DNA of 64,000 bases. It comes from Hippopus hippopus (lineage: Eukaryota; Mollusca; Bivalvia; Cardiida; Cardiidae). This document shows positions 3,573 through 57,104 of the stretch, piece by piece; position 1 is the stretch's first letter; each line of letters begins with the position of its first letter. Position numbers and translations under genes: made by a program. The notes under the pieces are model-generated. The model saw only the letters and a list, made by a program, of their open reading frames with translations, ran no database searches and was not told the DNA's origin. The stretch is from assembly GCA_946811185.2 (NCBI GenBank), contig OX328109.1, positions 43,508,129 to 43,572,128 on the forward strand, given 5' to 3'.

Positions 3573-5744
3573 TCACATTACGTTGCATAAGTATTCTGCT
3601 ACTGTTTCGTTGTAGTCCTCCTTTGGCTTTTTGTTTCTCTTTACATTTAAATTTTTCATATTGTTTTTCAACTTAGTTGGCACCTCACCAAAATGTTTGG
3701 CTGTCATATCAATTTCCCTATGAGTGTAAATGTCCTTTCGCTCTGGACCAAGCGGTTTGTGTGATATTTGTTTTATTCTGTTTGCGGACGTGTTCATCCT
3801 CTCCTTACCAAGCTGTTTGCCTGCCATATGCATTTCTAAATCATTTGAAATGTCTGTTTGCTCCGGACCTGCTATATTTATTGTCCTATCATGGTCTCGT
3901 AAATAATCGAAATTCTTCTGATCATGACTCATGAATTGCTTGGTAGAAGTTGCCAAATTCTGAAGCCCTGAAATAAGTACATTGCTTTTTAAGGAAACTG
4001 TTTTGCCAGGCGGCTTCCTGTAATCTTGATTGGCGTTGCTTTTTTGTGCATATTTGGACTGTTGTTTAAGCCGAGTTTCCTCAAATCTTCTGTCTTTCAT
4101 ATCTGTAATCTCTTGAGCTCTTTCATCGATTCCCGAGCTGCAGCGAGCACCAATAAGATCATTATCTATATCAGTATCCATATATCTTGGAGCTCTTATA
4201 ATTGGCATTGCACCATAGTCATAAATACTGTTAATAGAGACAGTATCTACAGGTTGTGAATATTCATCGTCAGATAAATCTTCTTCACTCAATGCATATC
4301 TACGTTTTTCATGTTTCGACACGTCTGTCTGTATTAAATCCACTACATCTGCAACACTTACACGTTCGGCTTGAATTTTCGAGATATACTTCTGTAGATC
4401 ACCAAGACTTTCCTTCTTTTGTAGCAGGGACCTGTACATCATGTCTGCATTACGCAGGTACGGATATACGATATTGATACAACAGTTGTTGTCCCCAAGT
4501 AAGTCGGCCAAGAGCACAACATGTTTTATTATTTCAAAGCATGTGCTGTACTCTTGAAAGAAAGCTTCATCGAGATGCATGTATTTCTCCAACAAATTAG
4601 GATTTGTGAAAAGATTATACAGTCTCCTGTTTTGAAATGAGATTGACAATAAATCGAAAATGTTACGGAAACAACCAAATTTTGTTACATATTTGTCGTA
4701 GCAAGTTAAAATATGGTGCAAAAATACAGTCTTTATGATGTACGAAGAAACTGGATGGTGTTTTTCTTCAGACCTCCGAAAGGTAAGAAGAACAAACACT
4801 TTTAGAGCCATGAAGACACTTCTGTGATGCTCACTTATTCCCTGAATGATTTTTATCTCCTCTCTCGAATTTGAAATTCGCCAACAGATCTTTTTTTCAC
4901 AGGTATTGCAAACCTTCGGGATAAGACTGCGTGAACCAGTTTCGGATAATAGATACTTCGATTCGTGCAAACCGTATGACGGTAAAAAATCGACCAAAAC
5001 ACAGATTTCATCTGCTGAAATTTCATCGTCTGGTGGTCCTTCAATGTCTTTTACAAACAGTGAGTAAGAAAGGCTTTTCCATTTGAAAATAAGATCACAG
5101 TGCTTTTCAAAGGAATTACCAAATTCAGCCACTGAAGCTATCGTCAAGGATCCACTTTTCTTTTTTACTTTGCACTTTGGACATCCATTCTTGTTCGTTT
5201 GTCCGATACATTCTATTCCGTAGTAAAGTTGAACAATTGAATTGCAATTGCAAGTATTCTCAATAGCACTCAAAAGTTCGTGCTGAAATCGCTGTCTGAC
5301 ATCTGATGGTGAAAGAAATACACCTTTTGACTTATGAAACGAAAAATGCTTACCTCTTTGAGATACTTTGTAGATGTTCCTATGTCCTTCACAGGACTCT
5401 AAAGTTTGTCTGTCTAAATCTTTATCAATAGCTAAACGTGCTAAAAAATCAAACTCAATGACTGGAAATCTCTTCGCGTTTCCCATTCTGTCTCGTCGAG
5501 AGGTTGTTGAATCAAAACTCCAAATCCTTGTTTTTTCGGCCATACTTCCAGCCATTTCAGTATCCAAGACTTTGAAATAGTGACTCCTCTTATTCAGTGC
5601 TGATAAATAACGACCAAGAAGAGTTTCTGTGGCGATAATGATATCCGTTATTTCGGAACGTGAAAAATTAACGGAATAATGGCTGCGTAGTTCTTCTACA
5701 ATACCCTCCATTTGATAAACAGATTGTTTCGAATGACTGAACAT
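3573..5744 (-). CDS. Mab-21 domain / cGAS-like receptor-type protein, single exon
   Basis: A 723-residue uninterrupted frame starting at the ATG at 5744. Residues about 60-350 match the Mab-21 (nucleotidyltransferase-fold) family. A GS pair lies at residues 66-67, E-F-D at 97-99, VDFLP with D252, and the typical C-lobe segment WRISNSREEIKII at 288-300 is followed by VSSYIIKTVFL. In cGAS and cGAS-like receptors the GS motif and three acidic residues bind nucleotide and metal, and all appear present here, so catalytic activity is possible. Two CxxC-like clusters (C188/C191, C279/C282 with C287) might bind zinc, but not in the cGAS pattern. From about residue 470 the protein is polar and low complexity with a basic end. 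Intronless, lineage-expanded Mab-21 genes are characteristic of bivalves. The ligand and product are unknown. Confidence 0.85.
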   Translation of the reverse strand: MFSHSKQSVYQMEGIVEELRSHYSVNFSRSEITDIIIATETLLGRYLSALNKRSHYFKVLDTEMAGSMAEKTRIWSFDSTTSRRDRMGNAKRFPVIEFDFLARLAIDKDLDRQTLESCEGHRNIYKVSQRGKHFSFHKSKGVFLSPSDVRQRFQHELLSAIENTCNCNSIVQLYYGIECIGQTNKNGCPKCKVKKKSGSLTIASVAEFGNSFEKHCDLIFKWKSLSYSLFVKDIEGPPDDEISADEICVLVDFLPSYGLHESKYLLSETGSRSLIPKVCNTCEKKICWRISNSREEIKIIQGISEHHRSVFMALKVFVLLTFRRSEEKHHPVSSYIIKTVFLHHILTCYDKYVTKFGCFRNIFDLLSISFQNRRLYNLFTNPNLLEKYMHLDEAFFQEYSTCFEIIKHVVLLADLLGDNNCCINIVYPYLRNADMMYRSLLQKKESLGDLQKYISKIQAERVSVADVVDLIQTDVSKHEKRRYALSEEDLSDDEYSQPVDTVSINSIYDYGAMPIIRAPRYMDTDIDNDLIGARCSSGIDERAQEITDMKDRRFEETRLKQQSKYAQKSNANQDYRKPPGKTVSLKSNVLISGLQNLATSTKQFMSHDQKNFDYLRDHDRTINIAGPEQTDISNDLEMHMAGKQLGKERMNTSANRIKQISHKPLGPERKDIYTHREIDMTAKHFGEVPTKLKNNMKNLNVKRNKKPKEDYNETVAEYLCNVM

Positions 5745-5772
5745 AAATTAGTTCATGCTTTTTGAACTATCT

Positions 5773-11271: not shown

Positions 11272-12800
11272 CTGAACCAAAAAAGAAACTTCCCCTGTGT
11301 TTAAGTGCAAATGCATATTATTAAAAAAAATCAAAATATCAGATGACCTACATATATTCGGGCGAACGATTATGTGTCCGATAAAACAAATTTTAACTCG
11401 ATTGAAAGCATTTTGCAGAAGAAACCCGCTGAAAGCGATTTTCATGTGCATGCACGGACAAGCATAATTCGTGTATATTTTTTGAAACCTTTCAGTCTAA
11501 TTTTATAGACTTTCGTGTCAATAAGAAAAAGACGTTGAAAAAAATTAAATTCTTTTTAGTTTTCTTTATTTTTGATATGCCTAGAATTCCGCAAAATTTA
11601 CGCGAACGTGCCATTGGCATGTTTAATGCTAGTATGACGATGAATGCTGTTGCTATGAATATTGGATGTTCTACTCGTGCTATTCGACACCTTAGGCAAC
11701 GTTTTCAAGCAACAGGGCGTACGGAAGATCGACCACCTAGTGGACGTCCTCGCGTCACGACGCGCGGCCAAGACCGCTATATTCGGAACACCCACCTGCG
11801 CAATCGCTTCCAAACTGCCACAGCCACTGCTGCTAACACCCCTGGTTCACATAACAACCGTATATCTGCCCAAACTGTGCGCAATCGCTTGCGCGAGGGT
11901 GGGCTACGTGCACGTCGTCCATACGTTGGTTGTGTTTTGACGCGCCGTCACCGCGTAAATCGTGTTAATTGTGCACGTACACACCAACGCTGGCTTAGAC
12001 AACAATGGAATGGCGTTCTATTCTCTGACGAGTCCAGGTTTTCCATTCATCGAGGTGATGGCAAGGTTCGAGTATACCGTAGGAGAAATGAACGTTATGC
12101 CGACTGTTGCGTACTTGAAAGAGATCGTTTTGGGGGTGGGGGTTCTGTCTTGGTCTGGGCGGGCATTGCACATGGCTTTCGCACTAATTTCGTCGTTACC
12201 GAAGGGAATTTGAATGCCCAACGCTACCGAGATGAAATTCTTGCGAGGCACGTTATCCCACTGTTTCAAAATAATGCCAATATCACTCTTTTTCAGCATG
12301 ATAATGCCACAAGCCATACAGCTAGGGACAATGTGAATTTCCTCAGAGCGAATAACATTGCATTTATTAATGACTGGCCTGCCAAAAGCCCTGATCTGAA
12401 TCCCATTGAACACCTTTGGGATAATTTGGACCAGCGTGTTAGACGTCGCCCTATTCCACCGTCAAACGTCATTCAGCTAAGACAAGCCTTAATTCAGGAA
12501 TGGAACAACATTCCACAAGCCGAAATCAATACACTTATCCGTTCTATGCGCCAACGATGCCAGGCAGTCCTTCATGCTGAAGGTGGTCATACCCGGTATT
12601 AATTTGTGATTTTGGTGAGCGACCCCTTCCGCATTTTAACTACCATTTCACTAATTTTGGATAAACCCTCAGCAATAATTTTTTTCACACAAAGTCGCAA
12701 TAAAATACTCTTTTAATGCATATAAATCTAGTTTAATCCTGATTTTCATATTTGTGTATATCTGCACTTAAACACAGGGGAAGTTTCCTTTTTGGTTCAG
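11272..12800 (+). mobile_element. Apparently complete Tc1-like transposon
   Basis: The ends are inverted copies of about 38 bp (CTGAACCAAAAAnGAAACTTCCC... on the left, the complement ending GGTTCAG on the right) with a single mismatch by eye. TA is present outside both ends, as expected for Tc1/mariner insertion. The element is 1.53 kb and encloses one open transposase frame. Near-identical ends and an unbroken frame suggest a recent insertion. Confidence 0.9.
11577..12602 (+). CDS. Tc1-like transposase, intact
   Basis: A 341-residue protein starting at the ATG at 11577 (MPRIPQ...); an earlier TTG in the same frame is not needed. Residues 1-60 form a paired-like helix-turn-helix ending in the GRPR motif that contacts the inverted repeat. 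A second helix-turn-helix region runs to about 130. The DDE domain has D151 (LFSDES), D242 (FQHDNATSHTA) and E278 (SPDLNPIEHLW), the metal-binding residues for cut-and-paste transposition in the nucleus. Between D242 and E278 I count 35 residues rather than the 34 of canonical Tc1. All core motifs and normal family length are retained, so it may be active. It is enclosed by the inverted ends at 11272 and 12800. Confidence 0.92.
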   Translation: MPRIPQNLRERAIGMFNASMTMNAVAMNIGCSTRAIRHLRQRFQATGRTEDRPPSGRPRVTTRGQDRYIRNTHLRNRFQTATATAANTPGSHNNRISAQTVRNRLREGGLRARRPYVGCVLTRRHRVNRVNCARTHQRWLRQQWNGVLFSDESRFSIHRGDGKVRVYRRRNERYADCCVLERDRFGGGGSVLVWAGIAHGFRTNFVVTEGNLNAQRYRDEILARHVIPLFQNNANITLFQHDNATSHTARDNVNFLRANNIAFINDWPAKSPDLNPIEHLWDNLDQRVRRRPIPPSNVIQLRQALIQEWNNIPQAEINTLIRSMRQRCQAVLHAEGGHTRY

Positions 12801-15138: not shown

Positions 15139-15284
15139 ACATTCAGTAATATAGCCATTGTATATAACTGCACCTTCGTTAACTTTCAATAACTTTTGAA
15201 AGAATGAACGCACATTCAGTAAAATAGCCATTGTATATAACTGCACCTTCTTTAACTTTCAATAACTTTTGAAAGAATGAAGCT
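15139..15284. repeat. 73-bp tandem duplication
   Basis: The block beginning ACATTCAGTAnnATAGCCATT occurs at 15139 and again at 15212 with only a few differences. It includes the short inverted words CTTTCAATAACTTTTGAAAG. No function is evident. Confidence 0.85.
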
Positions 15285-18320: not shown

Positions 18321-18971
18321 ATTTTGAATGGGGTGGTTTCATTACCGTAACAACTTACCCCAGTGTGCGTAATAACGCTCCCTATGAACGAGGCATGTTG
18401 ATACAGATTTTTTCGCATACATATTGATGGTCTGTTGGGTCGATAAACGTTTTATTTTTTACGTGTTTGTACAAATACGATACGGCTATTCGAGATCTTT
18501 CAGGGAATAAGTTAGAATTAAAATTCGGATGGTTTACTTGACGTTGACTGGTCATAAAAGAAAAAGTGTAAAAAAAAAAAAACATGAAAGACTATGCTAT
18601 GATAAGACTGAAACACTCCTTTTCAAAGGAGTTCAAAACACGACATAAATCAATCAAGCGTACTTATGTAATTGTCACTATACATAAACGTCGATATTTT
18701 TTCATTTGAATATACACAAAAAATATACAAGAAATGTCTTTAAAGGATATGACGGGCTATGGCCCTTAGAATAAACATCTCTACATTTTGGACCAATCAC
18801 AAATTTCTCTTCATTCATTTTTATGAGTACCAAGAAGTAGATCTAAGTCAAGAACCGGCACATTCAGCTATTTCGAAAAAAATCTATAACTACAGTACGC
18901 GCACTGTGAATGTTTTAATTAGTGTATACGTATAGTCAATATAGTCAATAATGTAGCTTATCGTTTACTAA

Positions 18972-19129
18972 TGTCACGGTGAGAGGTTAGATATATAAAC
19001 ACTTCAAACCTGCCTTGCTGTTAAGCTAGCCTTTACAGCGATGCGGTTTGGTGCATTTCTCTTCGAGGGAGTTAAGCAACGTGCTTTAAGTTAGTGCCTG
19101 GATGGGTGACCAGGCCGTTGCACGTTACA
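18972..19129 (+). repeat. 5' LTR with TATA box and 5S internal promoter
   Basis: TATATAAA lies at 18992-18999. AGTTAAGCAACGT (19070-19082) equals the 5S rRNA box A region, and GTTAGTGCCTGGATGGGTGACC (19090-19111) matches the 5S box C region with about two differences. The distance between the two is one base shorter than in animal 5S rRNA. The rest of the LTR is not 5S-like, so this is not a 5S gene. Confidence 0.75.
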
Positions 19130-19131
19130 TT

Positions 19132-19150
19132 TGGTGTCAGAAGTGGGATT
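19132..19150 (+). promoter_or_regulatory. Primer-binding site complementary to tRNA-Leu 3' end
   Basis: TGGTGTCAGAAGTGGGATT is the reverse complement of the CCA-tailed 3' end of animal tRNA-Leu (…AATCCCACTTCTGACA-CCA). Nineteen consecutive bases match and the site starts two bases after the LTR, the position required to prime minus-strand DNA synthesis. Confidence 0.85.
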
Positions 19151-19263
19151 ATGACTACTGCCGGACTGGAGTTGCCTTACCCATGTATGTTCCCCTGGTT
19201 ATATTCGTATATAAATACTTGTATATGAGTCTCGGGGTCGAGACTTCTCGAAGGCGGTAGTAA

Positions 19264-19421
19264 TGTCACGGAGAGAGGTTAGATATATAAGCACTTCAAA
19301 CGTGCCTTGCTGTCGAGCTAGCTTTTACAGGGATGCGGTTTGGTGCATTTCTCTCCGCAGAAGTTAAACATCGTGCTTTAAGTTAGTGCCTGGATGGGTG
19401 ACCAGGCCGGTGCACGTTACA
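19264..19421 (+). repeat. 3' LTR of the TRIM-type element
   Basis: Same length and termini as the 5' copy. The C-box-like TGGATGGGTGACC is unchanged at 19391-19403, while the A-box-like segment has two changes (AGTTAAACATCGT at 19362). A short purine run (GAAGGCGG) precedes it but is a weak polypurine tract. Confidence 0.75.
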
Positions 19422-19423
19422 TT

Positions 19424-19454
<31 letters not shown>

Positions 19455-19459
19455 GGGGG
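19422..19459. repeat. Poly-T / poly-G homopolymer
   Basis: About 11 T followed by about 27 G. Runs of this kind are prone to assembly error, and the short open frame across it is an artefact of base composition. Confidence 0.9.
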
Positions 19460-20879
19460 CAGGAGAGGAGGGGGAAATACTATTTATTGCTACTGAAGAG
19501 TGATTTAGTTTATACCTTAGCAGTTGACATATTATCACCGTTAAACTATAAAAGTCATTTAATCTGGTATATGTTAGATTCCATTTATTTTCTAATCAGG
19601 TAAACAAAAAGAAATTGGTTTGAAAAAATCTAAATACGCCATATTTCCTTTGACATTCAAAACTGTTAAGCTGTTGAAACATGTAAAATCGATAATACTT
19701 GGCAATTTAACTCTGTTACCACACAGGCTTAGTAAATAAATACAGAACGTGTACAGTATAAAATCTACTTATTGTCATTGCATTAGACAAATCACACCCT
19801 GGAGAGACCTTACGTTCTTGCTCCAGATCAACCTTACTGCTCCTGTCAATTGAACTTACCCGCTCCAGGTAAAAACATGGCCGCGCCATAGAATTTTGCT
19901 AGCTTAGCACTAAAACATACTTCAATGACAACCAGATGGATAGATATCCAGTAGATGGTTGTCGCTCGGAATGTCTGGGATGTCAGTGCATATTTCTGTA
20001 TCGTTCTTTTGGTGGTTGGTTGTTTGTTGATGACATTTAATCCGACAAACTTCTCTCAGCGACTGTGATTTCTTAATAATCAACACGCGGAAGTCAGCAA
20101 AAAGCTTTGTTCTGCATACAAACACAATATTCTGAAGTTTGTGATCTGTCAAGTGATTATTATATGCTTTATTCACCACAATTTTAACCAAAAAATATAC
20201 GATGTTCATTATCGAGCACCTTTCTGTCATTTTTATAGGCAACGCTTCACGCTCCAAAACTCAGTAAAACGATCCAGCTCCCGAGTTGAAACATAGTACG
20301 ATGTTTAAAACGATTGTCAACGAGTGTAATCAAATAATTTTTTTTATCAATATGTATAACTGTCTGTCTGTACGTCTTTCGGTCTTCTGTCAGTCAGGTT
20401 TCTTGTCCTCATTTTTGATGCTTTTGAAATGAAATGTCATTATATACATGAAGAGCTTGATGAAAGACAGTATCATGCACACGATCCATAACTATCATAA
20501 CTATCATGCACAAGATCCATAACTATTATAACTATCATCTTCGATATCGTCATCACAAGACTCCTCTTCGTTAATGTAAATTAATTATAATGATCATCAA
20601 CGAACAACCAACTATACGCCTACACACAGCTACACACCTAAAAGTATCTAGTTATATCTAATAGTACGATGATTTAAATGTGTATAGATTTTTTTCACAC
20701 CTTTGCCAAACAGTAGACCCTAATTAGACCTTAAAGTTGCTTACGAATGTCGAATAATGAATTTCTTTCAAATTAACAAGCTATTTTAATGTGAAGTACA
20801 CTACATAGATGCATAGTTTGTGATTTTTTGCACGAAAACAGATCCGGTAAATACTTAAATATTTTGGCACCAGAAAACG

Positions 20880-24216: not shown

Positions 24217-25615
24217 CAGGGTGTTTCATAATATCTGTCCCAATTTTACTCACATATAAATTCAACAAGACTTATCCTTGATTAATCTGAGTTACATAAT
24301 TCAATAAAAGACGTACGGGAGTTTTGTTTGGTGTATATAACCGGTATATTAGTGGAGTACCTTTCATTTCAGAACACATTTTCCAAATTCTCAATTTTAC
24401 AGCACATGCTCCAAATGACGTCCTTTCTGCAGTGCTCGTTTCTCTGTTAATGACACGGATTTCCGTCTTAATGGCAGTTTTCAATTCATCTGTTGTTTTT
24501 GGACTACGGTTATACACTCTGTCTTTTAGATATCCCCACAGGAAAAAATCTAAGGGGCTCAAATCAGGTGAGTGAGGTGGCCATTCAAAATCAGTCTTTA
24601 AAGAAATAATCCTTCGACCGAACGTCTGCTGTAACCATGTGATTACTTCCCCGGCTGTATGTGGAGTTGCCCCATCTTGCTGAAACCAAATGCTGTCTAA
24701 ATTAACACCCCGTCTTCTCAATGCTGGCACAAATTTCTTTCTCAGGAGACTTAAGTATCGGTCCTTGTTTACCATTTCAACTGTTCCCTCATCATCTTCA
24801 AAGAAGAAAGGACCAATTATCCCATTTACACTAATCGCCGCCCGAGCTGTAACTTTTTCACCATGTAATAGCTTTTCAATATAGAAATTAGGTTTCTCAG
24901 ATCCCCAATATCTACAATTTTTCTTGTTTAATTGTGCATTTAAGTAGAAATGTGCCTCGTCCGAGAACCAAATGTTATCAATGATATTCATATTGGCTAT
25001 CATCCAATTAGCAAATGATATTCTACCCTCAATATCTGTAGCTTTTAAATGTTGCATAATGGAAATAGTATAGGGCTTCAGTTTGAGATCATACTTTAGC
25101 ATTCTGTACACACTTGTAGAACTTACAGAGTTGCTGATATAAACCAATACTTTCCGAACTGACCTCTGAGGTGTTTCTTCGATCACTGCTTTCACCTGTT
25201 CAATATTTTCCTCGCTTCTTACGGATTTTGGTCGACCAGAGTTCCTGTGTCTTCTGTCCTCAATAGATCCCGAATCTTCAAATCTTCGTATAATTCTTTG
25301 TATTTGCTTCCTATCCATCTTCCTCAACTCAGGATACTGTTTCCTAATTTTTCTGACGACAACTGTTGTTGAATTTGTTTGATAGTACAGTTTAACAATT
25401 TCTGAAGCTTGTTCTTTTGACGGTGCCATTTTGAAAATAGCTCTGAGGAAATGACGTCATCATAATGTCTTGACGTCAAAGTCTTCCCGTACTTTTATAT
25501 TACCTAAAAACTCCCGCAATTCTTCATTATTTTGATATATGATAACTTAAAATACCTTTCAAAATGACTAAGTTATGTTGATTTGAAACTGGGGCAGATA
25601 TTATGAAACACCCTG
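24217..25615 (-). mobile_element. Apparently complete DD41D mariner ('rosa'-like) element
   Basis: The ends CAGGGTGTTTCATAATATCTG and its inverse (differing at about one of the first 25 bases) are both flanked by TA (24215-24216 and 25616-25617). The 1.4-kb element encloses a single open frame on the minus strand and no other sequence, consistent with recent mobility. Confidence 0.9.
24272..25429 (-). CDS. DD41D mariner-family transposase, intact
   Basis: A 385-residue protein from the ATG at 25429. Residues 1-70 form a helix-turn-helix domain of the type common in arthropod and mollusc mariner relatives (KEQASEIVKLYY...RRFEDSGSIEDRR), ending with GRPKS. A second helix-turn-helix follows to about 130. 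The catalytic core has D157 (WFSDEAHF), D252 (FQQDGATPHTA) and D294 (SPDLSPLDFFLWG). The 41-residue gap between the last two identifies the DD41D group, first described as rosa in tephritid flies. Length and motifs are complete, so it could be functional. It catalyses cut-and-paste transposition at TA targets. Confidence 0.92.
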   Translation of the reverse strand: MAPSKEQASEIVKLYYQTNSTTVVVRKIRKQYPELRKMDRKQIQRIIRRFEDSGSIEDRRHRNSGRPKSVRSEENIEQVKAVIEETPQRSVRKVLVYISNSVSSTSVYRMLKYDLKLKPYTISIMQHLKATDIEGRISFANWMIANMNIIDNIWFSDEAHFYLNAQLNKKNCRYWGSEKPNFYIEKLLHGEKVTARAAISVNGIIGPFFFEDDEGTVEMVNKDRYLSLLRKKFVPALRRRGVNLDSIWFQQDGATPHTAGEVITWLQQTFGRRIISLKTDFEWPPHSPDLSPLDFFLWGYLKDRVYNRSPKTTDELKTAIKTEIRVINRETSTAERTSFGACAVKLRIWKMCSEMKGTPLIYRLYTPNKTPVRLLLNYVTQINQG

Positions 25616-26645: not shown

Positions 26646-27808
26646 TTATGCTTTCTTTTCCACCATTCTCTCTTTTTCACCACTGTCATTCATAGCATCT
26701 AACTGTGCATCCTTCTCTTCACTGTTGAATCTACTCCCATGTTGTGCACCAACCAGGTTCAATATAATAGCGAGCACAAATGATCCAATACCATAACCCA
26801 ATAAATGGTAAAGGAATGATCTTGGCCCGAATGTTTCAAAGAGAAAACCAGTCAAACGTAAATAAATAATCCCCCCTATTGAGCCCCCTAAAAGTAAAAA
26901 CGTTATTGCCATTCCAGTCATTTCGACGTGATAATCACCCCAGCCGATACCGGATGGAAACAGGGGCGCATGAAAGAGCCCAGTTGATACAGATAACACC
27001 CACAGGGCTGTTGCATTGGTTGTTGCAAAGATATTTAGAAAAATGGTTGATATCAGAACGCCGGATGTCTCGATGAGAATAAGAATACGAATCGGAATAT
27101 ATCGTGCCGCTATAAATCCCGAAACTCGACCAACAGCGAAACTTATCCAAAATACGGTGTTAATGTAACTTCCATCACTGACTGAAAATCCTAGTTGCTC
27201 TATGGAATATGCACGTATGAATTTTCCGAGTATGCGTTCTCCGCCAACAATGTTGATAAAATAAATGAATAGAAGCCCAAATATTTCGACACCGTACAAA
27301 AATCGTCCACCTGAACATGTTGCAGGATTTATCATCTTTTTTACTCCTTCAATAAAGTTTTTACCGCGTCTATTCGATTTCGCTGATTTATCCTTGTTAG
27401 TGCGCCCGTCTGTTTCTTTTTGCCTGTACTTACGCTGTCCTCGTATGTGATACGTGTAGAAAACAGAGGAAAGCGCTAAAGTTATCAAAGCCGAAATCAA
27501 ATAAGCGATTTCTATCCTAGATTCACGGATGTATTCGATATCCCCGCCATGTTGGTACCCTCGATCTGACACTGAATTGTTCATATGTATTATGGAACTT
27601 TCGGAAATGTCAGCGGTAGATACATTACTGCCAAGTTGTGAACTTTGATTGAAGGACAAATTCTGATTGGTTCTTGGTTTTGGTACAGCAAGAAATGGGT
27701 TTGCGATGAGTGGTATAATGAAGGAACCAATACCAAATCCACCATGAAGGATATGCAGAGGTGACGCAGCTTTCTCTTTCCACAACTTTAGTATTACTTT
27801 CTGGCCGG
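26646..27808 (-). CDS. MFSD4/NaGLT1-like MFS transporter, C-terminal exon
   Basis: This 1163-nt exon follows an acceptor (ttatcattttag) at 27809-27810 and ends at TAA. It encodes the last eight or so membrane segments of a major facilitator protein: HILHGGFGIGSFIIPLIANPFL near the start, a long hydrophilic loop with NxS/T sites, IAYLISALITLALSSVFY, FLYGVEIFGLLFIYFINIVGG, INTVFWISFAVGRVSGFIAARYI, two more helices, then YHLLGYGIGSFVLAIILNLVG and a charged tail. The 'LHGGFGIGSFIIPLI' segment and long loop resemble MFSD4-type (sodium-dependent glucose transporter 1-like) proteins of the plasma membrane. Its phase joins exactly to the exon at 29791. The substrate is not shown by the sequence. Confidence 0.85.
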
Positions 27809-29790
27809 CTAAAATGATAAAAAAGTGAGTCTTAGGAAGCTGTTAAAAAACGCACCAGTTGTGCATGCGTTGAGTTTATCAGATAAAACAGGTTTCAAAA
27901 AAGAAGCACACATGGTTTCTGAAATTTTGTTACCATCGGGAGTTTTCTGAACATAGATGTATCCAGGAATTATAATCATGAATTTTTCGAAATTTTAGGT
28001 TTTGATTTTTCAATTTTAAGTGCGTGAAAATTCAGCTTTGCAGTGTGGTTCTAGGGGGGGACAACCATTCTGCAAAATATCAAATAATATGACTTGTGTC
28101 TTTTCTGACATGGGACGCAAAAAGTGCCTAAGGGGTCTTTTAAGTGACCATGTACAAATGTAGAATACATGTATCTGACTAAATGTTACCCCCCCCCCCC
28201 CAACGAAAAAAACCACAAACAAAACAAAAAACCCGAGGGGCTATGGATTATTTGACGATTAAACTGATTTAATTCTGAAGCTGCTAAGCGCGACTCACTG
28301 GCCTTTTTGCGGACAGTGTAGATCTAAGATCAGACAGCACAGAATGTGCTGTCTGATCTTAGATCTACACTGTCCGATAAGGAGATACTTTTCTTTAAAT
28401 AAATAAGTTTGAGGTAACATTATTCGGGTTTTTACTGTCGGTTTGAAAGGTTTGTTTAATTTATTCTGCGGGATAACGGTTAAAAATGATTACATACGTA
28501 CCGTTTTAACCACTGAGCCATGGATGCAGTTGTATTTCACGGGAACTTACGAATATGGTACACGGAAACAAGTCATGTGTATAGGTAGTTTGAGGTTCAT
28601 AGGGACCCCTGAATTTTGAAATATCTTGAAAAACCCCCTTTCAATTTTTATGAAACTTTTTTTTCAGTCTTTTAAAGTGACCTTACCAAATCTCACAGCG
28701 AAAATTACAACTTTTGTTCCGCAAGAAAGAGCTTTTTGCCTATTCCAGTAACGATAATAATTTTTTGTTCTAAAGCTTAACTTTCACACAGTGACCAGAA
28801 CAGCAAACTTAACTGAACATGTGCATGACTTCAGTGCTTCATTTTAGTTAAATATGAGGCCCTGAAATTGTTTTTTGGACAAACAATTCAGTTCTATACC
28901 TTACCTTAGATATCGTTTTCGTCACTTTCATACAAATCTTCAAAGACGAAAATGATTCGTCTATTGTTCTCTAATATCGTGTCTGTTCTCCAAAATTTGG
29001 TCTCGATTTTATTTTTGGCATGGCTTCATGTTTAAGTATGTGTTTTCGAAACCACCGACACTTGGACTCAAATGACTTAGACTCGAAGATCTTTCATGGT
29101 TTGTTTCGAGTTGTTTTCGCTATTATTTTTTCAGTTTGCCCAAAATTAGCTCAATTGTATTTTGGTCACAATCATACCTGGTCTTGATCTTGAGACACTT
29201 TGTCCCTTTGACCGTAAAAATTCATCTACAACAATACTTTGGAGCTTGATTATGGAACTTAACCAGTTCATAAAATTTACCCATCTTAATTTTATTGTTG
29301 TATGCCATACCACATGATGTGAGCCAACATTTGACGGGGTTTCAGGAAAAAAATCTATTGTTGGCCGTTGAAAAGAAAACAAAGTGTAAACAGGTGCGTG
29401 TAAGTCTATGATGTTGAATCGTTAAAATAAAACTCAAATAAAAAAATGAGATAAGGGCCTCAAGAGTTGAAGGTTTTGCTGTTCAAACAATAGACGGCCA
29501 CATAGACTAACAGTTACAGTACTTGCATGAGAATTGTTTTCATAAACAGGTAAACCCTTTACTTTGAATAGTTTTCAACCCTCCCACCGTTTTTAAGCTT
29601 TTTTGTCCATACATTTTAACATTGCATTGAACGCAAAAAAATCATCATTAACTATGCTTATTTTCAGTACAATAGTCAAAGCATTTTTGAAGATATTTCA
29701 AAATTCAAGAGGTCCCTATGTATCTCAAACTTTTTTTTTTTTTATAAATATAAGTTTAACACTGCCATATGATAAAATCGTTTCACTGAC
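27809..29790 (-). other. MFS gene intron with MITE and C-tract
   Basis: Apart from a poly-C run at about 28189-28201 and the P1 element at 28269-28483, the intron holds no recognised feature. The region 28500-29780 is unique AT-rich DNA. Confidence 0.6.
28269..28483 (+). mobile_element. MITE family P1, full copy 1
   Basis: 215 bp between TTAA at 28269-28272 and TTAA at 28480-28483. The left part reads GCTGCTAAGCGCGACTCAC, the centre is a perfect-looking palindrome (TGTAGATCTAAGATCAGACAGCAC and inverse), and the right part reads CTGTCCGATAAGGAGATA and ends GCGGGATAACGGTTAA. Same order as 30138-30348, and inverse at 34690-34910. Confidence 0.85.
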
Positions 29791-39038: not shown

Positions 39039-41811
39039 TTATATAAAATCATCATCACTGTCTTGAAATGTTCTTTTAACATGAAAATGTTTGGATGTAT
39101 CCTTCGCTTTCCATTCCGCGGGACAAGCTAGTCTTTTGCTGTATTTCGGTCTTCCTCCTTTCTGTGCGGCATCTTTGGCTTTGTCCTGTGTTTTTTTCTG
39201 TTTAGTTACAGGTTGTTTCCCAAGTCCTTTGCTAGTGTCATCTTTTGACGTTGTCAAAAAACAGAAATTAAAAGGTATGTCACCCATGTACAAGTAACAC
39301 ACACGTCCTAATACAATGTGCAGGACATTGCTTTGAAGAAGTGCATTACTCACCAAGTCAGTAATGGCTTCAGTAGTTGTATGTGTACCAAGCGTGCCAC
39401 TATCTTCACCGGTGTCCTCCGACGACGACAGACTTTCAGTCACCTGATGTATTAAATAATACAGACATCAATTCAAGGTATAGAAATGGCGTTCAGAAAT
39501 ATGTGTAATAAGTACGCAATACGATTGAAAGAAACACGAAAAATTAACTGATCACTGTAGCATCCACGTTTGATGGTCCGGCAACAGGTTCATCAGTTTC
39601 TTCAAAAGGGTCTGAAAGATCACCGTCATTGTCGCTGTTACTGTCGTGGCTTTCTATTGCACTTTCAACACGGCTCTACCATGAAATACAAACACAAAAC
39701 ATTACCATGTAATCCCAAATGTATTCTGGAAAAACAATGATAAGCACATTTCATAATTTCATCTTTGCAATGAAGCTTTTCTATGGAATCCACTTACCCT
39801 TTTATATTCCTCCCCTGATGGAAGCGTATTAAAGATTGGGGCCACGTAGCTGTACATAGGGGGACTGTCCAGTGAATAAATATTTGTAAGGTCGTCAAGG
39901 TAGGCACCCATCAGGTACTCGCCCATGTACATATGCCTGTACTTGACCTCACACAGGTGGGACTCAAAATTGGCCAAACCCCTCACACCATTCATTTCTT
40001 TGAAATGAGCTTTGGCATGTTTCCACGCACCCTCTACTGTGTTGGTATGTACAGTTATCACCTCCCCTGTTTGTACATTTTCGTATCTGAAAGAAAAGTC
40101 GCACAGGTATAAACAATATTACAGGTAACTTTTGTTACTGAAAGTGCATATGAGAAAAGCACGGCAAAGTACTGGCATAAGTGTTTCATGAATGAAAAAA
40201 GAACATGGTGGAAAATGGAAGAAAACATGCAACAGGTGATTTCGGTATTTTCCACTGGGAAATATCCCTCTCTTTTGTCACCCCCGTTAAAAAGCCGACA
40301 TTCTTTGCTATACATTTCATGTTATATTTACTTCTGGTAATATCGGTCGTTAATATCAGTATAGCACTTTATATATATATATACTTACTTTTGAGTGAAT
40401 GACATTTTGTGACTCACTACAAAATGTTGGTAACCTTCCTCAATTAGGGTTAAGTATACAGACCAGCCACCCGACAGTATCCTTGACCCTGGAATTATGT
40501 GCCTCTTTATAATTGGTATCATAATTTCTTTACATCTGCTTCCCACAGGATACATTATGAGTCGATTGGACGACCTCTCCACCATTCCGAAAATCCTAAG
40601 ACGTGTACCTGTAAAAGCATTGTAATACATTTATGGGGACAAATGAGCATGGTATATATAGTACAATGGTATACTGTTATTTTACTTTGTTGTACATAAT
40701 GCTTGAAAATGGGATTACTGACCACGTGAAAAAGAAGGAATACCGCACACTTCAACATAACGGACATACCTCTCACCGCACCACAACGATGTTTCATCTT
40801 GCGTCCAAATAATGACTTGTCTATCTCCACGTCGCCACTGAGCTGATTAGTGGGGAGACACCTGTATATCTTGTCCACCATCACTTCTCTGATCATTGAT
40901 CCCCAGTTTACTGCTGTGGTGGAATAATTAACCCCAACCTGTGCACATATTTTTTTCAGAGTCATTCCGTCCAGATACAGCTTAATAAAAAGGACAACGT
41001 CCCTGACTTCGATTTTCACTCTCTGAAACAGAAAAGTGTATACTTTTATATATAATATAAATGTGTCAGTAAAGTATATTGCATTGTATGTATTTACTAA
41101 ATGTGAACGTGTCTTCCATTTCTTTCTTAAATTCTCTTTATTGTACGGCAATTCTTATTGAAGAGAAAATGAAATGTTTTGCACAGGATTAGTTCCTACA
41201 CAGCAAGAAACAGTACCGTGGCAGTGAAAAAGAAGAACGGTGTATGTAATAATTTTATCTGTTCAATATCGCCATGGCAATACAAATGGTAATGGTAAAA
41301 TTGTGGAAAAGGCCAAAAACAATGTTATTTGTAACGGGGTGGATAATACCTTTCCCTATCCAGAGAAGTTAAAAGGGTACAAAACATTGCATGAAAAGTA
41401 CACATACGCATGTAAGAAGATGTTGACATATGAAAAGTATTTCAGGAGAACATTAATAATTTCTGGTATTTATGACCATTGTTATATATTCACACTGTAC
41501 TTAAAAGCCTGTAAAACTTACTTGGAAAAAACTATTGTGCAATGTACTGGTTGAGTGCTTGTTGCTGCACATGTGTACACTCTTCCCAGCTTGTGATGTC
41601 CTCTTGTCCTGGGTCTCCAACTGGCCTGCGAATTACATTGCGGACACTGGATACGAGGTGCAGCTATGTGGTTGTGTTCTCTGAACCACTTTAAGACGTA
41701 TTTGTCTTCACTTTGAAAAAGATAATAAAAATTCCACGGATTCTGAAGGTCTAACTCTGAAATATCCCGGACGTCCGTTTTTCTATTTCTGTAAGTTCCG
41801 AATCCCGACAT
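39039..41811 (-). pseudogene. Multi-exon IS1595/ISXO2-like transposase, copy A (inactive)
   Basis: Six exons with matching phases: 41811-41522 (zinc ribbon, CPQC...), 41022-40782 (helix-turn-helix then VEIDKSLFGRK, first D), 40608-40389 (IFGMVERSSNRLIMYP...IIPGSRILSGGW), 40086-39798 (YENVQTGEVITVHTNTVEGAW, third acidic residue E), 39675 to about 39545 (acidic), and 39443-39039 (acidic, then basic with GRPKYS and a DSDDDFI end). Donors are GTAAGT-like and acceptors are pyrimidine-AG. The fold is the DDE domain of bacterial IS1595/IS1016 and eukaryotic Merlin. Lesions: a 2-nt insertion after the second zinc-ribbon cysteine region (about 41567-41580), and GGT at 40469-40471 where the family's second catalytic aspartate (SDGW) is expected. 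Confidence 0.8.
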
Positions 41812-42545: not shown

Positions 42546-42805
42546 GGGTATGTGCCGTTTATAAATTCTTACAACAGTTTAAACCGTTAAGTCACCGTTC
42601 GTACCTTATTTCCATGTTAACAGTGTGTGATAAGTAATCAGTCCGAAAATGATCAACTTAAATCCGTTTGTATCGTTAATTTTCCAGTACACTGTTTTCC
42701 TTTATGTAATACTATGGTTATTGAAACATTGCGTGTGTTCTTAAACAAGTGCAAACCCTTATTAAGTAAAGACAGGCATGACTTACTACCAATCCATGCT
42801 TTTCT

Positions 42806-44560
42806 AAGGCATTGCGAAGCGTTAGAAGACCATCAGTATTGGTATGGTAACGCTTCGCCCATGCCTTTGAAACACGCGTTTTAATCTTGTTTTCCCCAAA
42901 AACATTCCGAGCCCCTTTTTGCCTGTGCATTCGTCTCCAAGAGAAACCCTTCTCCTGGGAAGATCTTCCGTTCCGTGCAATATAAAGATTGTCAATTTAT
43001 AGCGTCGTTGCTATATATTGGTATGGGAACGGTTCGCCTATCGTGCATAAATACCCTGTGATTATTGAAACTTACAGCAAATCTCTAACTTTCTCTTACT
43101 GCATGTGCATTAATACGGGTACGTGACTTTTCTACATGCATTTATTTTCTGAATACATTCATAGAAAAGTGTCTTTCTATATCACAACATTTTGTACCTT
43201 AGAAATTAATGATTCGTATCGCTGTAAGGAACGATTGTGCACAAGAAAGTAGCATAATATGCTACAGACAGGCATCACATATCAACAATCTATGCTTTTG
43301 TAAGGCATTGCGAAGCGTTAGAAGACCATCAATATTGGTATGGTAACGCTTCGCCCATGCCTTTGAAACGCGAATATTCTTGTTTTCCGCCAAAACATTC
43401 CGAGCCCCTTTTTGCCTGTGCATTCGTCCCCAAGAGAAACCCTTCTCCTGGGAAGATCTTCCCTTCCGTGCAATATAAAGATTGTCAATTTATAGCATCG
43501 TTGCTATATATTGGTATGGGAACGGTTCGCCTATCGTGCATAAATACACTATGATTATTGAAACTAACAGCAGAACCCTAACTTTCTCTTACTGCATGTG
43601 CATTAATACGGGTACGTCACTTTTCTACAGGTATTTATTTTCTGAATACATTCATAGAAAAGTATCTTTCTATATCACAAAATTTACTACCTTAGAAATC
43701 AATGATTCGTATCAATGTAAGGAAGGATTGTGCACAAGAAAGTAGCATAATATGCTACAGACAGACATTACATATTAACACTCTATGCTTTTGTAAGGCA
43801 GTGCGAAGCGTTAGAAGACCATCAGTATTGGTATGGTAACGCTTCGCCCATGCCTTTGAAACACGCGTTTTAATATTCTTGTTTTCCCCCAAAACATTCC
43901 GAGCCCCTTTTTGCTTGTGCATTCGTCCCCAAGAGAAACCCTTCTCCCGGGAAGATCTTCCCTTCCGTGCAATATAAACATTGTCAATTTATAGCATCGT
44001 TGCTATATATTGGTATGGGAACGCTTCGCCTATCCTGTATAAATACACTGTGATTATTGAAAATGACACAGAACCGTAAGTGTACATGAAGTATAAGTGA
44101 CGTGTACCTTTAAATCAAACTTAGCGACCGTTGAACAAAAGTGTCCATGTCCATTCATCCATAAAAGAAATTGTGTCAGTACCGTGGTAATGTTATGTTG
44201 CGGTAAAACGAATCGCTTTGGGTAAAACCCGGTAATCTTTCGCCATGGTGAAGTATTACGTTTAAACATTGCATGATATTGTAAAGGGTCGCGAACCGTT
44301 ACCTGACTAAAAGTACTGGTATGGTAACACTTAGCCAAAACCATTCTAATGTGCATTTTTAATTTTCTTCTCTTCCCCCCAAAACATTCCGAGCCCCTCT
44401 TTGCCTGTGCATTGGTCCCCAAGAGAAACCCTTCTCCCGGGAAAATCTGCCCTTCCGTGCAATATAAGATTGTCTATATATGACACCGTCGCTATATATT
44501 GGTATGGGAACGCTTCACATACACTCTATAAGCACGATGTTTATACAGTACAGCGAAGTA
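42806..44560. repeat. Subterminal ~495-bp tandem repeats with hairpins, copy A
   Basis: Units start at 42806, 43302 and 43795 (each AAGGCAnTGCGAAGCG), with a diverged fourth near 44280-44560. Each unit contains the inverted pair GCGAAGCGTTA...TAACGCTTCGC around a loop with TATTGGTATGG, then CATTCCGAGCCCCTnTTTGC, a CTTCTCCCGGGAAGATCTTCC block, and TATATATTGGTATGGGAACG. Copy B has fewer units (about 52800-53620, inverse). Such subterminal repeats are often transposase-binding arrays. Confidence 0.8.
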
Positions 44561-44941: not shown

Positions 44942-47900
44942 TATTTCTGATTGATACATGCCAAGAAATATCAAAATTAAGCTCGACTTTGAGTGAAATC
45001 AGACTATGAATCTTTCGGCCCCAGCCTTTTTCGTTACTATTTTCAAACTTAATTTCTTTCTTGTCCAGTTTAGCCCACACGCTCCACATTGAAACTTTGC
45101 ATGTGCTGAGACCATCAAGGGGCGATGTAAACGTAATGGGCAATCACGGCATAGCTGGCTGTATAAACCAGCGAGACAACTTTTCCAGGGGCCATTGGTA
45201 CCTGTTGCATAAAAAGGAAAGACACGCAATTGCCCCTTTCTCTCCATTACATTTTTTAACACATCAAAAACAAAATTCTGTTTAAGATCAATCTGAATTT
45301 TTATGATGGTAAATTAAAGACATTTTGACAGGCATAATGGCGTTAGACTGAGTAGAAAGGATAAGGAGCAGTTCTGCTTTGTGCAGTCAGGGAAAATAAT
45401 TCAACTTTGGTTTTGGAATAGCCTGATAGTTTTGAAAGGTTTAATCAGTTATTGTGGCATGAGTAGGCTGAGAGAGGAACAACAAAAGGAAGGGAGTGGT
45501 CACAGTGCACGGTCAAATGTATACAGCTAGCCTGGGCTCAGGCTCGGAATATGTCTTGAGCCGACATGTGCCTCAACTGAACGTAACTACATAGTTGAAC
45601 CCCTATATTGTCCGCAACGGTTTTACAGAGACTAGAATCTGAAGATGGTTTCCGTGACAATGCACTCACATATGGCACTTACTTCCACAGGGAAACATAA
45701 CTGCTACATTTGCAACACAAATATGGCTGTTTTTCCTGAAAGAGAAAATAGCAACAAAACACTAAAATTGTCTTCAAATGAGAATGACAAAATTAATTAA
45801 TGTCATTAGACAGATATGTGCAGAAATGGATTGGAATGGCAAACTTTACACAAACTCACATTTAGAGCTTTTGAAAACATTGTGGAAAAAGGGGAAAATG
45901 CTGAAAACCAGAATTTTTGCATCTCCTTCAATGTTTTGTACCCTTTTTAATGGACTGGAATGGCAAACTTTACACAAATTCGCATTGGGTTTTTGTGTGC
46001 GGATAAATGCAATAATTATGTAAGTGGGTGACCGTCAGCTGAAACCAATTCCGGACTCTAGTCATGTATCAATGTCGTCTGCGTTTTAGAGATTCAGCCA
46101 TGTCATAACAGGCTCAAGGATCATAATGTCAAACTTATTGTGGGTAAACACTACCGCTACAAAGAAAAGGGGTTAATTAATAAGGAATAAACCTGATTTC
46201 GGATTCTAGTCTTCATAGCAATGTCGTCTGCTCTTTAGGAATTCAATCATGTCGTTACGGGCCAAGGGCACATAATGCCTATTTGGTACAAATGTTCAGA
46301 GCCACAGCATGGCCAGGCAAAATTATTGTGGATAAACACTACATTTACCAAGAAAAAGGGTTTAGTAATGAGGAATAAATCCAATTTCGAACTCTAGTCT
46401 GATTAGCAATGTCGTCTGCTCTTAAGGGATTCCATTATGTCATTACGGGGCAAAGGCACATAATGCCTATTTGCCACAAATATTCAGAGCCACAGCATGG
46501 CAAGGCAAAATCACTCTGGGTAAACACTACAGTAACAAAGAAAAGTGGATTTTGAATGAGGAATAAAACCAATTTCGAACTCTAGTCTGCACAGCAATGT
46601 CGTCTGCGCTTTAGGAATTCAACCGTGTCATTACGGGCCCAATGCACATAATGTCTCTTTGACACACAGATTAAGAGCCACAGCCTGGCTTGGCAAATAT
46701 GTTGTGGGTAAACACTATCCTTACAAAGAAAAGAGCATATTTAATGAGAAAGAAAATTTACAGATAATTTTAAGATATTTATCAAAGCCTTGCATTTAAA
46801 TCTCAGTAAGAAACAAGTATTTTAGAGAAAAGAGAGCGAAAAGGGTTTTAAGAAATAAGCGAAAGTCAATAATAATGAAGGATTTCAGGTTCGAACCCCT
46901 GAAGAACCCCGTGACCAAGACTAAAAATAGTTTCATACTGTCTACCAAGCCCACTGGGCCATGGAATCAGTTGAGTTTAACAAGAAAAGATTATCTATTT
47001 ATATATATATCCTCCCCTACTATTCCAAAAGAAAACAACAGAACATCGTTTTTTTTCACGTGACCGTGAAAAAAGAACAATTGTTATTATTTGGAAAAGT
47101 GGTTGAAAAGTAAAGTTAATGTCTATTTTGAAGGCTAATATGTAATCCTCAGTTGACCAGCACATATTTCTGATTGATACATACCAAGAAATATCAAAAT
47201 TAAGCTCGACTTTGAGTGAAATCAGACTATGAATCTTTCGGCCCCAGCCTTTTTCGTTACTATTTTCAAACTTAATTTTCTTTCTTGTCCAGTTTAGCCC
47301 ACACGCTCCACATTGAAACAGTGCATGTGTTGAGACCATCAAGGGGCGATGTAAACGTAATGGGCAATCACGGCATAGCTGGCTATATAAACCAGCGAGA
47401 CAACTTTTCCAGGGGCCATTGGTACCTGTTGCATAAAAAGGAAAAACACACAATTGCCCCTTTCTCTCCATTACATTTTTTAACACATCAAAAACAAAAT
47501 TCTGTTTAAGATCAATCTGAATTTTTATGATGGTAAATTAAAGACATTTTGACAGGCATAATGGCGTTAGACTGAGTAGAAAGGATAAGGAGCAGTTCTG
47601 CTTTGTGCAGTCAGGGAAAATAATTCAACTTTGGTTTTGGAATAGCCTGATAGTTTTGGAAGGTTTAATCAGTTATTGTGGCATGAGTAGGCTGAGAGAG
47701 GAACAACAAAAGGAAGGGAGTGGTCACAGTGCACGGTCAAATGTATACAGCTAGCCTGGGCTCAGGCTCGGAATATGTCTTGAGCTGACATGTGCCTCAA
47801 CTGAACGCAACTACATAGTTGAACCCCTATATTGTCCGCAACGGTTTTACAGAGACTAGAATCTGAAGATGGTTTCCGTGACAATGCACTCACATATGGC

Positions 47901-50900
47901 ACTTACTTCCACAGGGAAACATAACTGCTACATTTGCAACACCAATATGGCTGTTTTTCCTTAAAGAGAAAATAGCAACAAAACACTAAAATTGTCTTCA
48001 AATGAGAATGACAAAATTAATTAATGTCATTAGACAGATATGTGCAGAAATGGATTGGAATGGCAAACTTTACACAAACTCACATTTAGAGCTTTTGAAA
48101 ACATTGTGGAAAAAGGGGAAAATGCTGAAAACCAGAATTTTTGCATCTCCTTCAATGTTTTGTACCCTTTTTAATGGACTGGAATGGCAAACTTTACACA
48201 AATTCGCATTGGGTTTTTGTGTGCGGATAAATACAACAATTATGTAAGTGGGTGACCGTCAGCTGAAACCAATTCCGGACTCTAGTCATGTATCAATGTC
48301 GTCTGCGTTTTAGAGATTCAGCCATGTCATAACAGGCTCAAGGATCATAATGTCAAACTTATTGTGGGTAAACACTACCGCTACAAAGAAAAGGGGTTAA
48401 TTAATAAGGAATAAACCTGATTTCGGATTCTAGTCTTCATAGCAATGTCGTCTGCTCTTTAGGAATTCAATCATGTCGTTACGGGCCAAGGGCACATAAT
48501 GCCTATTTGGTACAAATGTTCAGAGCCACAGCATGGCCAGGCAAAATTATTGTGAGTAAACACTACATTTACCAAGAAAAAGGGTTTAGTAATGAGGAAT
48601 AAAACCAGTTTCGAACTCTAGTATGATTAGCAATGTCGTCTGCTCTTAAGGGATTCCATTATGTCATTACGGGGCAAAGGCACATAATGCCTATATGCCA
48701 CAAATATTCAGAGCCACAGCATGGCCAGGCAAAATCACTCTGGGTAAACACTACAGTAACAAAGAAAAGTGGATTTTGAATGAGGAATAAAACCAATTTC
48801 GAACTCTAGTCTGCACAGCAATGTCGTCTGCGCTTTAGGAATTCAACCGTGTCATTACGGGCCCAATGCACATAATGCCTCTTTGACACACAGATTAAGA
48901 GCCACAGCCTGGCTTGGCAAATATGTTGTGGGTAAACACTATCCTTAAAAAGAAAAGAGCATATTTAATGAGAAAGAAAATTTACATACAATTTTAAGAT
49001 ATTTATCAAAGCCTTGCATTTAAATCTCAGTAAGAAACAAGTATTTTAGAGAAAAGAGAGCGAAAAGGGTTTTAAGAAATAAGCGAAAGTCAATAATAAT
49101 GAAGAATTTCAGGTTCGAACCCCTGAAGAACCCCGTGACCAAGACTAAAAATAGTTTCATACTGTCTACCAAGCCCACTGGGCCATGGAATCATTTGAGT
49201 TTAACAAGAAAAGATTATCTATTTATATATATATCCTCCCCTACTATTCCAAAAGAAAACAACAGAACATCGTTTTTTTCACGTGACCGTGAAAAAAGAA
49301 CAATTGTTATTATTTGGAAAAGTGGTTGAAAAGTAAAGTTAATGTCTATTTTGAAGGCTAAAATGTAATCCTCAGTTGACCAGCACATATTTCTGATTGA
49401 TACATACCAAGAAATATCAAAATTAAGCTCGACTTTGAGTGAAATCAGACTATGAATCTTTCGGCCCCAGCCTTTTTCGTTACTATTTTCAAACTGAATT
49501 TTCTTTCTCGTCCAGTTTAGCCCACACGCTCCACATTGAAACTGTGCATGTGTTGAGACCATCAAGGGGCGATGTAAACGTAATGGGCAATCACGGCATA
49601 GCTGGCTGTATAAACCAGCGAGACAACTTTTCCAGGGGCCATTGGTACCTGTTGCATAAAAAGGAAAAACACACAATTGCCCCTTTCTCTCCATTACATT
49701 TTTTAACACATCAATAACAAAATTCTGTTTAAGATCAATCTGAATTTTTATGATGGTAAATTTAAGACATTTTGACAGGCATAATGGGGTTAGACTGAGT
49801 AGAAAGGATAAGGAGCAGTTCTGCTTTGTGCAGTCAGGGAAAATAATTCAACTTTGGTTTTGGAATAGCCTAATAGTTTTGAAAGGTTTAATCAGTTATT
49901 GTGGCATGAGTAGGCTGAGAGAGGAACAACAAAAGGAAGGGGGTGGTCACAGTGCACAGTCAAATGCATATGGCTAGCCAGGGCTCAGGCTTGGAATATG
50001 TCTTGAGCCGACGTGTGCCTCAACTAAACGCAACTACATAATTGAACCCCTATATTGTCCGCAACGGTTTTACAGAGACTAGAATCTGAAGATGGTTTCC
50101 GTGACAATGCACTCATACATGGCACTAACTTGCACAGGGAAACATAACTGTTACATTTGCAACACCAATATAACTGTTTTTCCTGAAAGAGAAAATAGCA
50201 ACAAAACGCTAAAATTGAATTTTCAAATGAGAAAGACAAAATTAATTGATGTCTTTAGACAGATGTGTGCAGAAATGGATTGGAATGGCAAACGTTACAC
50301 AAACTCACATTTAGAGCTATTGAAAACATTGTAGAAAAAGGGGGAAAATGCTGAAAACCAAAATTTTTGCATCTCTCACAATGTTTTGTACCCTTTTTAA
50401 TGAACTGGAATGGCAAACTTTACACAAACTCGCATTTGGTTTTTGTGTGCAGATAAAGGCAATAATTATATAAGTGGATGACCGTCCGCTGAAACCAATT
50501 CCGGACTCTAGTCATGTATCAATGTCGTCTGCGTTTTAGAGATTCAGCCATGTCATAACGGGCTCAAGGATCATAATGTCAAACTTATTGTGGGTAAACA
50601 CTACCGCTACAAAGAAAAGGGGTTAATCAATAAGGAATAAACCTTACTTTGGGCTCTAGTCTACATAGGAATGCCGTCTGCTCTTTAGGGATTCAACCAT
50701 GTCATTACGGGCCAAGGGCACATAATGCCCAGCTGGCACAAATGTTCAGAGCCACAGCTTGGCCAGGCAAAATTATTGTGGGTAAACACTACATTTACCA
50801 AGAAAAAGGGTTTATTAATGAGGAATAAAACCAATTTCGAACTCTAGTCTGCATAGCAATGTCGTCTGCTCTTAAGGGATTCCATTATGTCATTACGGGC

Positions 50901-56833: not shown

Positions 56834-57104
56834 AGAAATTATATTTGCAATAATGCTACTTACATGTCAGCGTTGTTATCTGTATATTGAGGTGTAAACG
56901 TTATCATGCGTCCGTGCGGAAATTTAGGTATTCCCCTTAAAGGACCGCTTAACAGTCATAAAAAAGAAATATGCGCAATAAGAAATAGTTCCGTCTGTCT
57001 CGAATTACGGCGTTGAATTCCTTTCTTGCAAGCATCTACTCACCCAGGTCATTGTTCTGAAAACTGAAAACTGGTTCGCATGCGAACTAAAACCATATTA
57101 TGCC

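Follow-up and report, generated by a model that had tools for sequence, protein, structure and literature searches.

An old TRIM-type LTR retrotransposon copy from a bivalve with a probable 5S rRNA-type promoter in its LTRs

A 450-bp element at positions 18972-19421 of the 64-kb window, by which we mean the whole stretch of DNA analysed, is probably an old copy of a TRIMp3-type LTR retrotransposon, non-autonomous and about 450 bp long, that carries an RNA polymerase III (Pol III) promoter of the 5S type (type 1) in its LTRs and resides in a bivalve. Its plan is closest to that of Ajax, a group of elements from nemerteans. The earlier note had already read this stretch as a bivalve TRIM with a 5S-type promoter in its LTRs, and the LTR pair, the primer-binding site, the alignment to 5S rRNA and the promoter boxes all support that anatomy. 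What is new relative to Ajax is the phylum, Mollusca, and a TATATAA motif 23-29 bp upstream of the predicted transcription start.

Structure of the element

All features of the element are given on the forward strand (+). It is composed of a 158-bp 5' LTR (18972-19129), a 134-bp interior (19130-19263) and a 158-bp 3' LTR (19264-19421), which gives a size within the limits for TRIMs (LTRs of about 100-250 bp, total below 1 kb). The two LTRs align without gaps, with 144/158 positions identical and 14 mismatches, bearing out the two 158-bp TG...CA direct repeats described earlier. Both start with TGTCACGG and close with CGTTACA, the 5' LTR ending in GCACGTTACA, and over a short length the termini are imperfect inverted repeats of one another (TGTCACGG / TGTAACGT). 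Because the LTRs differ at 14 of 158 positions, the copy appears to be old. Two of these 14 differences fall in box A and none in box C. A mismatch-free run of 38 bp around box C (LTR positions 109-146) was not significant by a rough reckoning, and the LTR-end motif TGTMACG was not enriched in the window (14 observed against 11.9 expected).

The interior begins with a putative primer-binding site of 18-19 nt (TGGTGTCAGAAGTGGGATT, 19132-19150), two bases past the 5' LTR, which we take to be complementary to the 3' end of an animal tRNA-Leu. The stretch TGGTGTCAGAAGTGGGAT starts at the third base of the interior, so the site follows the 5' LTR directly, as in TRIMs. The earlier note had placed a 19-nt tRNA-Leu site here, and its position was confirmed. 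ARAGORN found no tRNA in the 64-kb window. At the other end of the interior, a weak polypurine-like stretch (GAAGGCGGTAG, 19250-19260) with 9/11 purines stops three bases short of the 3' LTR. The interior has no coding capacity, as had been proposed for these 134 bp: the longest stop-to-stop frame that touches it has 56 amino acids, and frames of 73 and 70 amino acids touch only the 3' LTR and its flank.

A target-site duplication abutting the LTR ends, of the 4-6 bp typical of TRIMs, was absent in the single copy examined, with ACTAA before the element and TTTTT after it; the earlier note had made no such claim for this copy. The site where the downstream duplication would sit is occupied by a run of T12 followed by G26 (19422-19459). 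A displaced duplication was considered and rejected: the 5-mer TACTA occurs both 6-2 bp ahead of the 5' LTR and 57-61 bp beyond the 3' LTR, past the T12G26 tract, and chance alone would give 0.6 matches of this kind.

RNA folding predictions gave -43.5 kcal/mol for the interior (z -2.66), a value reached by 1 of 200 shuffles and by 13 of 1000 in a larger set. The predicted fold is closed by a 9-bp stem in which ACTACTGCC (19154-19162) pairs with GGCGGTAGT (19253-19261), the latter adjoining the 3' LTR, and this stem would bring the primer-binding side close to where the 3' LTR begins. For the full element the predicted energy was -154.2, a value reached by 1 of 100 plain shuffles. Controls that kept a direct repeat with 14 changes were as good in 3 of 150 cases, and controls that kept the real interior with shuffled LTRs in 8 of 150. 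Cassandra elements are described with a predicted super-hairpin that brings the primer-binding site and polypurine tract close (PMC7215508); the fold predicted here recalls it, on moderate evidence from one sequence.

5S rRNA-derived boxes in the LTRs

The LTRs were compared with a presumed bivalve-type 5S gene sequence, and all box scores are relative to that reference. Its positions +35 to +57 agree except at one base with a published insect primer, TCGTCCGATCACTGAAGTTAAGC (PMC11202950). A search of viral_contigs for a real animal 5S gene to serve as reference returned none.

In each LTR one stretch aligned to 5S positions +32 to +92, at 19057-19111 in the 5' LTR and 19349-19403 in the 3' LTR, with 44/55 aligned bases identical and three gaps in both cases. 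The local score was 24 for each LTR, and the best of 1000 dinucleotide shuffles reached 17 for each, so that none scored as high. Away from the element, the best of 3194 tiles on both strands scored 14.5. With a human 5S gene as the reference, each LTR scored 19.5, which again exceeded all 1000 shuffles. No such likeness was detected in the interior, for which 984 of 1000 shuffles scored as high.

Within this stretch, box A of the 5' LTR (AGTTAAGCAACGT, 19070-19082) matches the reference 5S positions +50 to +62 at 13/13 bases; its counterpart in the 3' LTR (19362-19374) is decayed and matches at 11/13. The box C core (TGGATGGGTGACC) matches +80 to +92 at 13/13 bases in both the 5' LTR (19099-19111) and the 3' LTR (19391-19403), and the only two exact occurrences of TGGATGGGTGACC in the window are these. 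The spacing from box A to box C is 17 nt, one base short of the 18 nt in 5S. A 5S box A in the left repeat and a box C in both, at near-native spacing, is what the earlier note had claimed, and the comparison upholds it. At +67 to +72, where 5S has its intermediate element, both LTRs keep only 2/6 bases, and the element is lost. Boxes A and C together retain 26/26 bases in the left LTR and 24/26 in the right, whereas the remaining aligned stretch retains only 18/29 and 20/29, respectively.

Rfam gave no match at gathering level anywhere in the window, and at E<=10 the region 18900-19500 gave two weak matches, neither of them to 5S. The missing 5S match may be expected because the LTR holds only a fragment of the gene (+32 to +92).

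An upstream TATA motif at the distance found in 5S genes

If box A is set to +50, the predicted start falls at LTR position 50, which is position 19021. A TATATAA motif is present at 18992-18998 in the 5' LTR (LTR positions 21-27), i.e., at -29 to -23 from the predicted start, and occurs a second time in the 3' LTR at 19284-19290. A TATATA starting between -31 and -25 appeared in only 4 of 5000 shuffles of LTR positions 1-98, and its frequency in the window gives an expectation of 0.011. For 5S genes of Donax clams, a TATA-like motif is reported at about -28, two of the four species having it intact as TATATA, and boxes A, IE (the intermediate element) and C are placed at 50-64, 67-72 and 80-97 (PMC6204057). 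Because the TATATAA sits at the native 5S distance, the upstream and internal parts of the promoter may be combined in one LTR, judging from position in one copy.

The only T4 run of the element, at 19323-19326 (LTR positions 60-63, 3' copy only), is a possible candidate for a Pol III terminator. A depletion of T4 runs in the element was not significant, with one run against 2.7 expected and at most one run in 16% of 2000 shuffles.

Copies, partner and surroundings

No further copy of the LTR or the interior was found within the 64-kb window. None was found in phage records either, nor with an exact pattern in viral_contigs or genome_contigs; these collections hold viral and prokaryotic DNA, and absence from them therefore says little. 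The end of the 5' LTR and the interior, read as the 56-amino-acid frame, gave no candidate among chance open reading frames of other genomes. No reverse transcriptase was detected among the 16 window frames given to Pfam (9 of the 12 in one set and 7 of the 22 in another). Five of the nine frames had transposase, MFS or helix-turn-helix matches and four had nothing, as did the other seven.

The window contains several other repeats and frames. A unit of about 2.2 kb is repeated near 45.0, 47.3, 49.5 and 51.7 kb, with another copy near 57.0 kb (45040-52112 and 57007-59304), and the stretch at 37.9-38.8 kb resembles it in part. A 188-bp repeat forms arrays at 46130-46732, 48354-48956, 50580-51183 and 58108-58695. 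A 493-bp tandem satellite covers 42770-44467, with 2.6 copies called by TRF at 42770-44079 and a further copy to 44467; by eye, a related sequence on the reverse strand near 52860-52960 includes a T13G12 tract similar to the one flanking the TRIM. A 73-bp tandem pair with 97% matches lies at 15139-15281.

Long transposase frames at 11433-12602 (+) and 24272-25456 (-) have DDE_3 and helix-turn-helix matches and are Tc1/mariner-like. Two frames on opposite strands, 40555-41154 (-) and 55106-55699 (+), are nearly identical by eye and match HTH_23; we assume that they may belong to an IS1595-like DNA transposon. The frame at 26646-27842 (-) resembles an MFS sodium-dependent glucose transporter, and among the best 120 of its 151 matches the closest named relatives were in Mya (62%), Mercenaria (61%), Mactra (59%) and then Ruditapes (52%), the top match being an ENA protein at 86%. 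Judged from this one gene, the host is probably a heterodont bivalve. An open frame of 724 amino acids at 3573-5747 (-) matched nothing in Pfam at E<=0.001, and nothing in NCBIfam came near its cut-off.

Relation to Ajax and other elements

The closest known counterparts are the Ajax families Ajax-1_NGe and Ajax-1_LiLo, TRIMs of 434 and 421 bp described from two nemerteans, Notospermus geniculatus and Lineus longissimus; their LTR contains the 5S promoter portion, tRNA-Leu serves as primer, and the target duplications are 5 bp long (Kojima 2024, PMC10886601). That report unites Ajax, Cassandra and the tRNA-type Helenus as TRIMp3, and by its account Pol III transcription is unproven for Ajax too (PMC10886601). 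The earlier note knew of no described animal case; Ajax, an animal TRIM that combines part of the 5S promoter with a tRNA-Leu primer, is one (PMC10886601). The independent acquisition that the note inferred would compete with an Ajax that is older or more widely distributed than published. The clam element shares with Ajax an LTR that contains only the promoter part of 5S, the tRNA-Leu primer-binding site and a similar size (450 bp compared to 421/434 bp). By published description, Ajax differs in being reported from two nemerteans only, in having kept the intermediate element that is lost here, and in its 5-bp duplications, of which the single copy here has none (PMC10886601).

A true member of the Ajax family, either inherited within Lophotrochozoa or moved horizontally between nemertean and bivalve, would be a special case of the 5S-type TRIM reading, and we regard it as a serious possibility that we stop short of favouring. 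The shared class of LTR promoter, the shared tRNA-Leu primer and the lengths of 450 and 421/434 bp speak for such descent. Against it, primers of the tRNA-Leu type are not rare among animal Gypsy elements. Ajax is also reported with box A, the intermediate element and box C, whereas the clam copy has lost the second of these, and the likeness is one of plan and not of compared sequence.

Cassandra of vascular plants is likewise a TRIM whose LTR contains boxes A and C of 5S (PMC7215508, PMC10853983). We searched the window on both strands with a plant-derived pattern of the Cassandra boxes (box A RGTTAAGYRHGY and box C RRRATRGGTRACY, 15-25 nt apart). With at most three and one mismatches, respectively, the pair was found solely at 19070/19099 and 19362/19391; limits of three and two mismatches added four sites in the window, and four and two gave many more. 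The aligned box A site misses 2/12 bases of the pattern in the left LTR and 3/12 in the right, at the spacing of 17 nt, and equally good alternatives exist at position 48 of the left LTR and at five positions of the right LTR. The box C pattern has one mismatch in each LTR. The Cassandra primer-binding site TGGTATCAGAGC differs from TGGTGTCAGAAG of the clam element at 3/12 positions, and membership in Cassandra was rejected on this mismatch. The two are probably of separate origin.

Other short elements are further away. Helenus, with 51 families in pteriomorph bivalves, also belongs to TRIMp3 and has a Pol III promoter in its LTR, but that promoter is tRNA-derived and its animal target duplications are reported as 4 bp (PMC10886601). 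The biv-TRIM of heterodont (and pteriomorph) bivalves is ruled out by its published dimensions, with terminal repeats of 202-218 bp and an interior of 77-80 bp; it is further described with a polypurine tract that is mostly GGGGAGA and with no unambiguous primer-binding site, and the term '5S rRNA' is absent from the main text of that paper (PMC6934838). SINE3 elements, the 5S-derived SINEs such as HaSE3, also use 5S boxes as promoter, but they are without LTRs or a primer-binding site and are mobilised by non-LTR retrotransposons. A survey of open-licence journal papers, mostly at title level, found no 5S-LTR element from a mollusc, and a snail genome paper mentioned neither Cassandra nor Ajax.

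Promoter class and proposed cycle

The TATATAA motif would serve Pol II equally well. The element might accordingly be a TRIM transcribed by Pol II from this motif, in which the 5S-like stretch is a relic, e.g., of a SINE3 in an ancestral LTR, with no promoter function. Given the usual distance from a TATA box to a Pol II start, the motif at LTR positions 21-27 fits a start near LTR position 50, and the loss of the intermediate element (2/6) also agrees with a relic. Cassandra-like TRIMs that lack 5S and have TATA boxes are known in Asteraceae (PMC10853983). Retroposed promoters of the 5S type are, moreover, presumed weak or silent because such promoters are considered to depend strongly on upstream signals (PMC3272025). 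On the other hand, it is boxes A and C that are best kept (26/26 and 24/26, versus 18/29 and 20/29 for the remainder), and we consider transcription by Pol II from an LTR with a mere 5S relic improbable.

A degenerate 5S pseudogene repeat that was tandemly duplicated and resembles an LTR pair by chance is hardly credible: the lack of a target duplication at the ends and of an additional copy in the window and in the viral and prokaryotic collections would agree with it, but the TG...CA ends and the primer-binding site of 18-19 nt two bases past the first repeat argue against it, as do the presence of only 5S +32 to +92, the missing Rfam 5S match and the absence of a further unit in 64 kb.

For a TRIM with a 5S-type Pol III promoter, the following cycle can be proposed. 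TFIIIA and TFIIIC would bind boxes A and C of the 5' LTR, and TFIIIB would bind the TATATAA. Transcription by Pol III would begin near 19021, cover the rest of the LTR, then the primer-binding site and interior, and terminate within the 3' LTR or shortly past it. The RNA would be packaged by the proteins of an autonomous partner, probably of the Gypsy type, and tRNA-Leu would prime its reverse transcription, which would be followed by integration. Each new copy would regenerate the full LTR and carry the upstream TATA and the internal boxes along. A retroposed 5S copy of the SINE3 type, unlike an LTR element, does not bring the upstream TATA along. The LTR would regenerate upstream and internal parts together, and the loss of activity presumed for retroposed 5S copies would therefore be avoided.

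A more far-reaching idea, which we put forward tentatively and think rather unlikely, is that LTR retrotransposons captured a 5S promoter independently for a third time, here in bivalves, the earlier cases being Cassandra and Ajax. The LTR would then hold the main parts of a type 1 Pol III promoter, namely the TATA at the native -28 in addition to boxes A and C, and each insertion would bring its own upstream signal. If true, this would account for the repeated appearance of 5S promoters in LTR elements despite their presumed weakness in SINEs.

Implications

As a 5S-promoter TRIM, the clam element would extend the distribution of such elements from nemerteans to molluscs. Ajax-like elements would then date far back in spiralian animals, have moved horizontally, or have arisen more than once. 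From the TATA motif at the native 5S distance comes a testable explanation of how a 5S promoter can work in LTR elements, namely that the upstream signal travels along. In work on bivalve 5S genes, copies of this kind may be mistaken for 5S pseudogenes.
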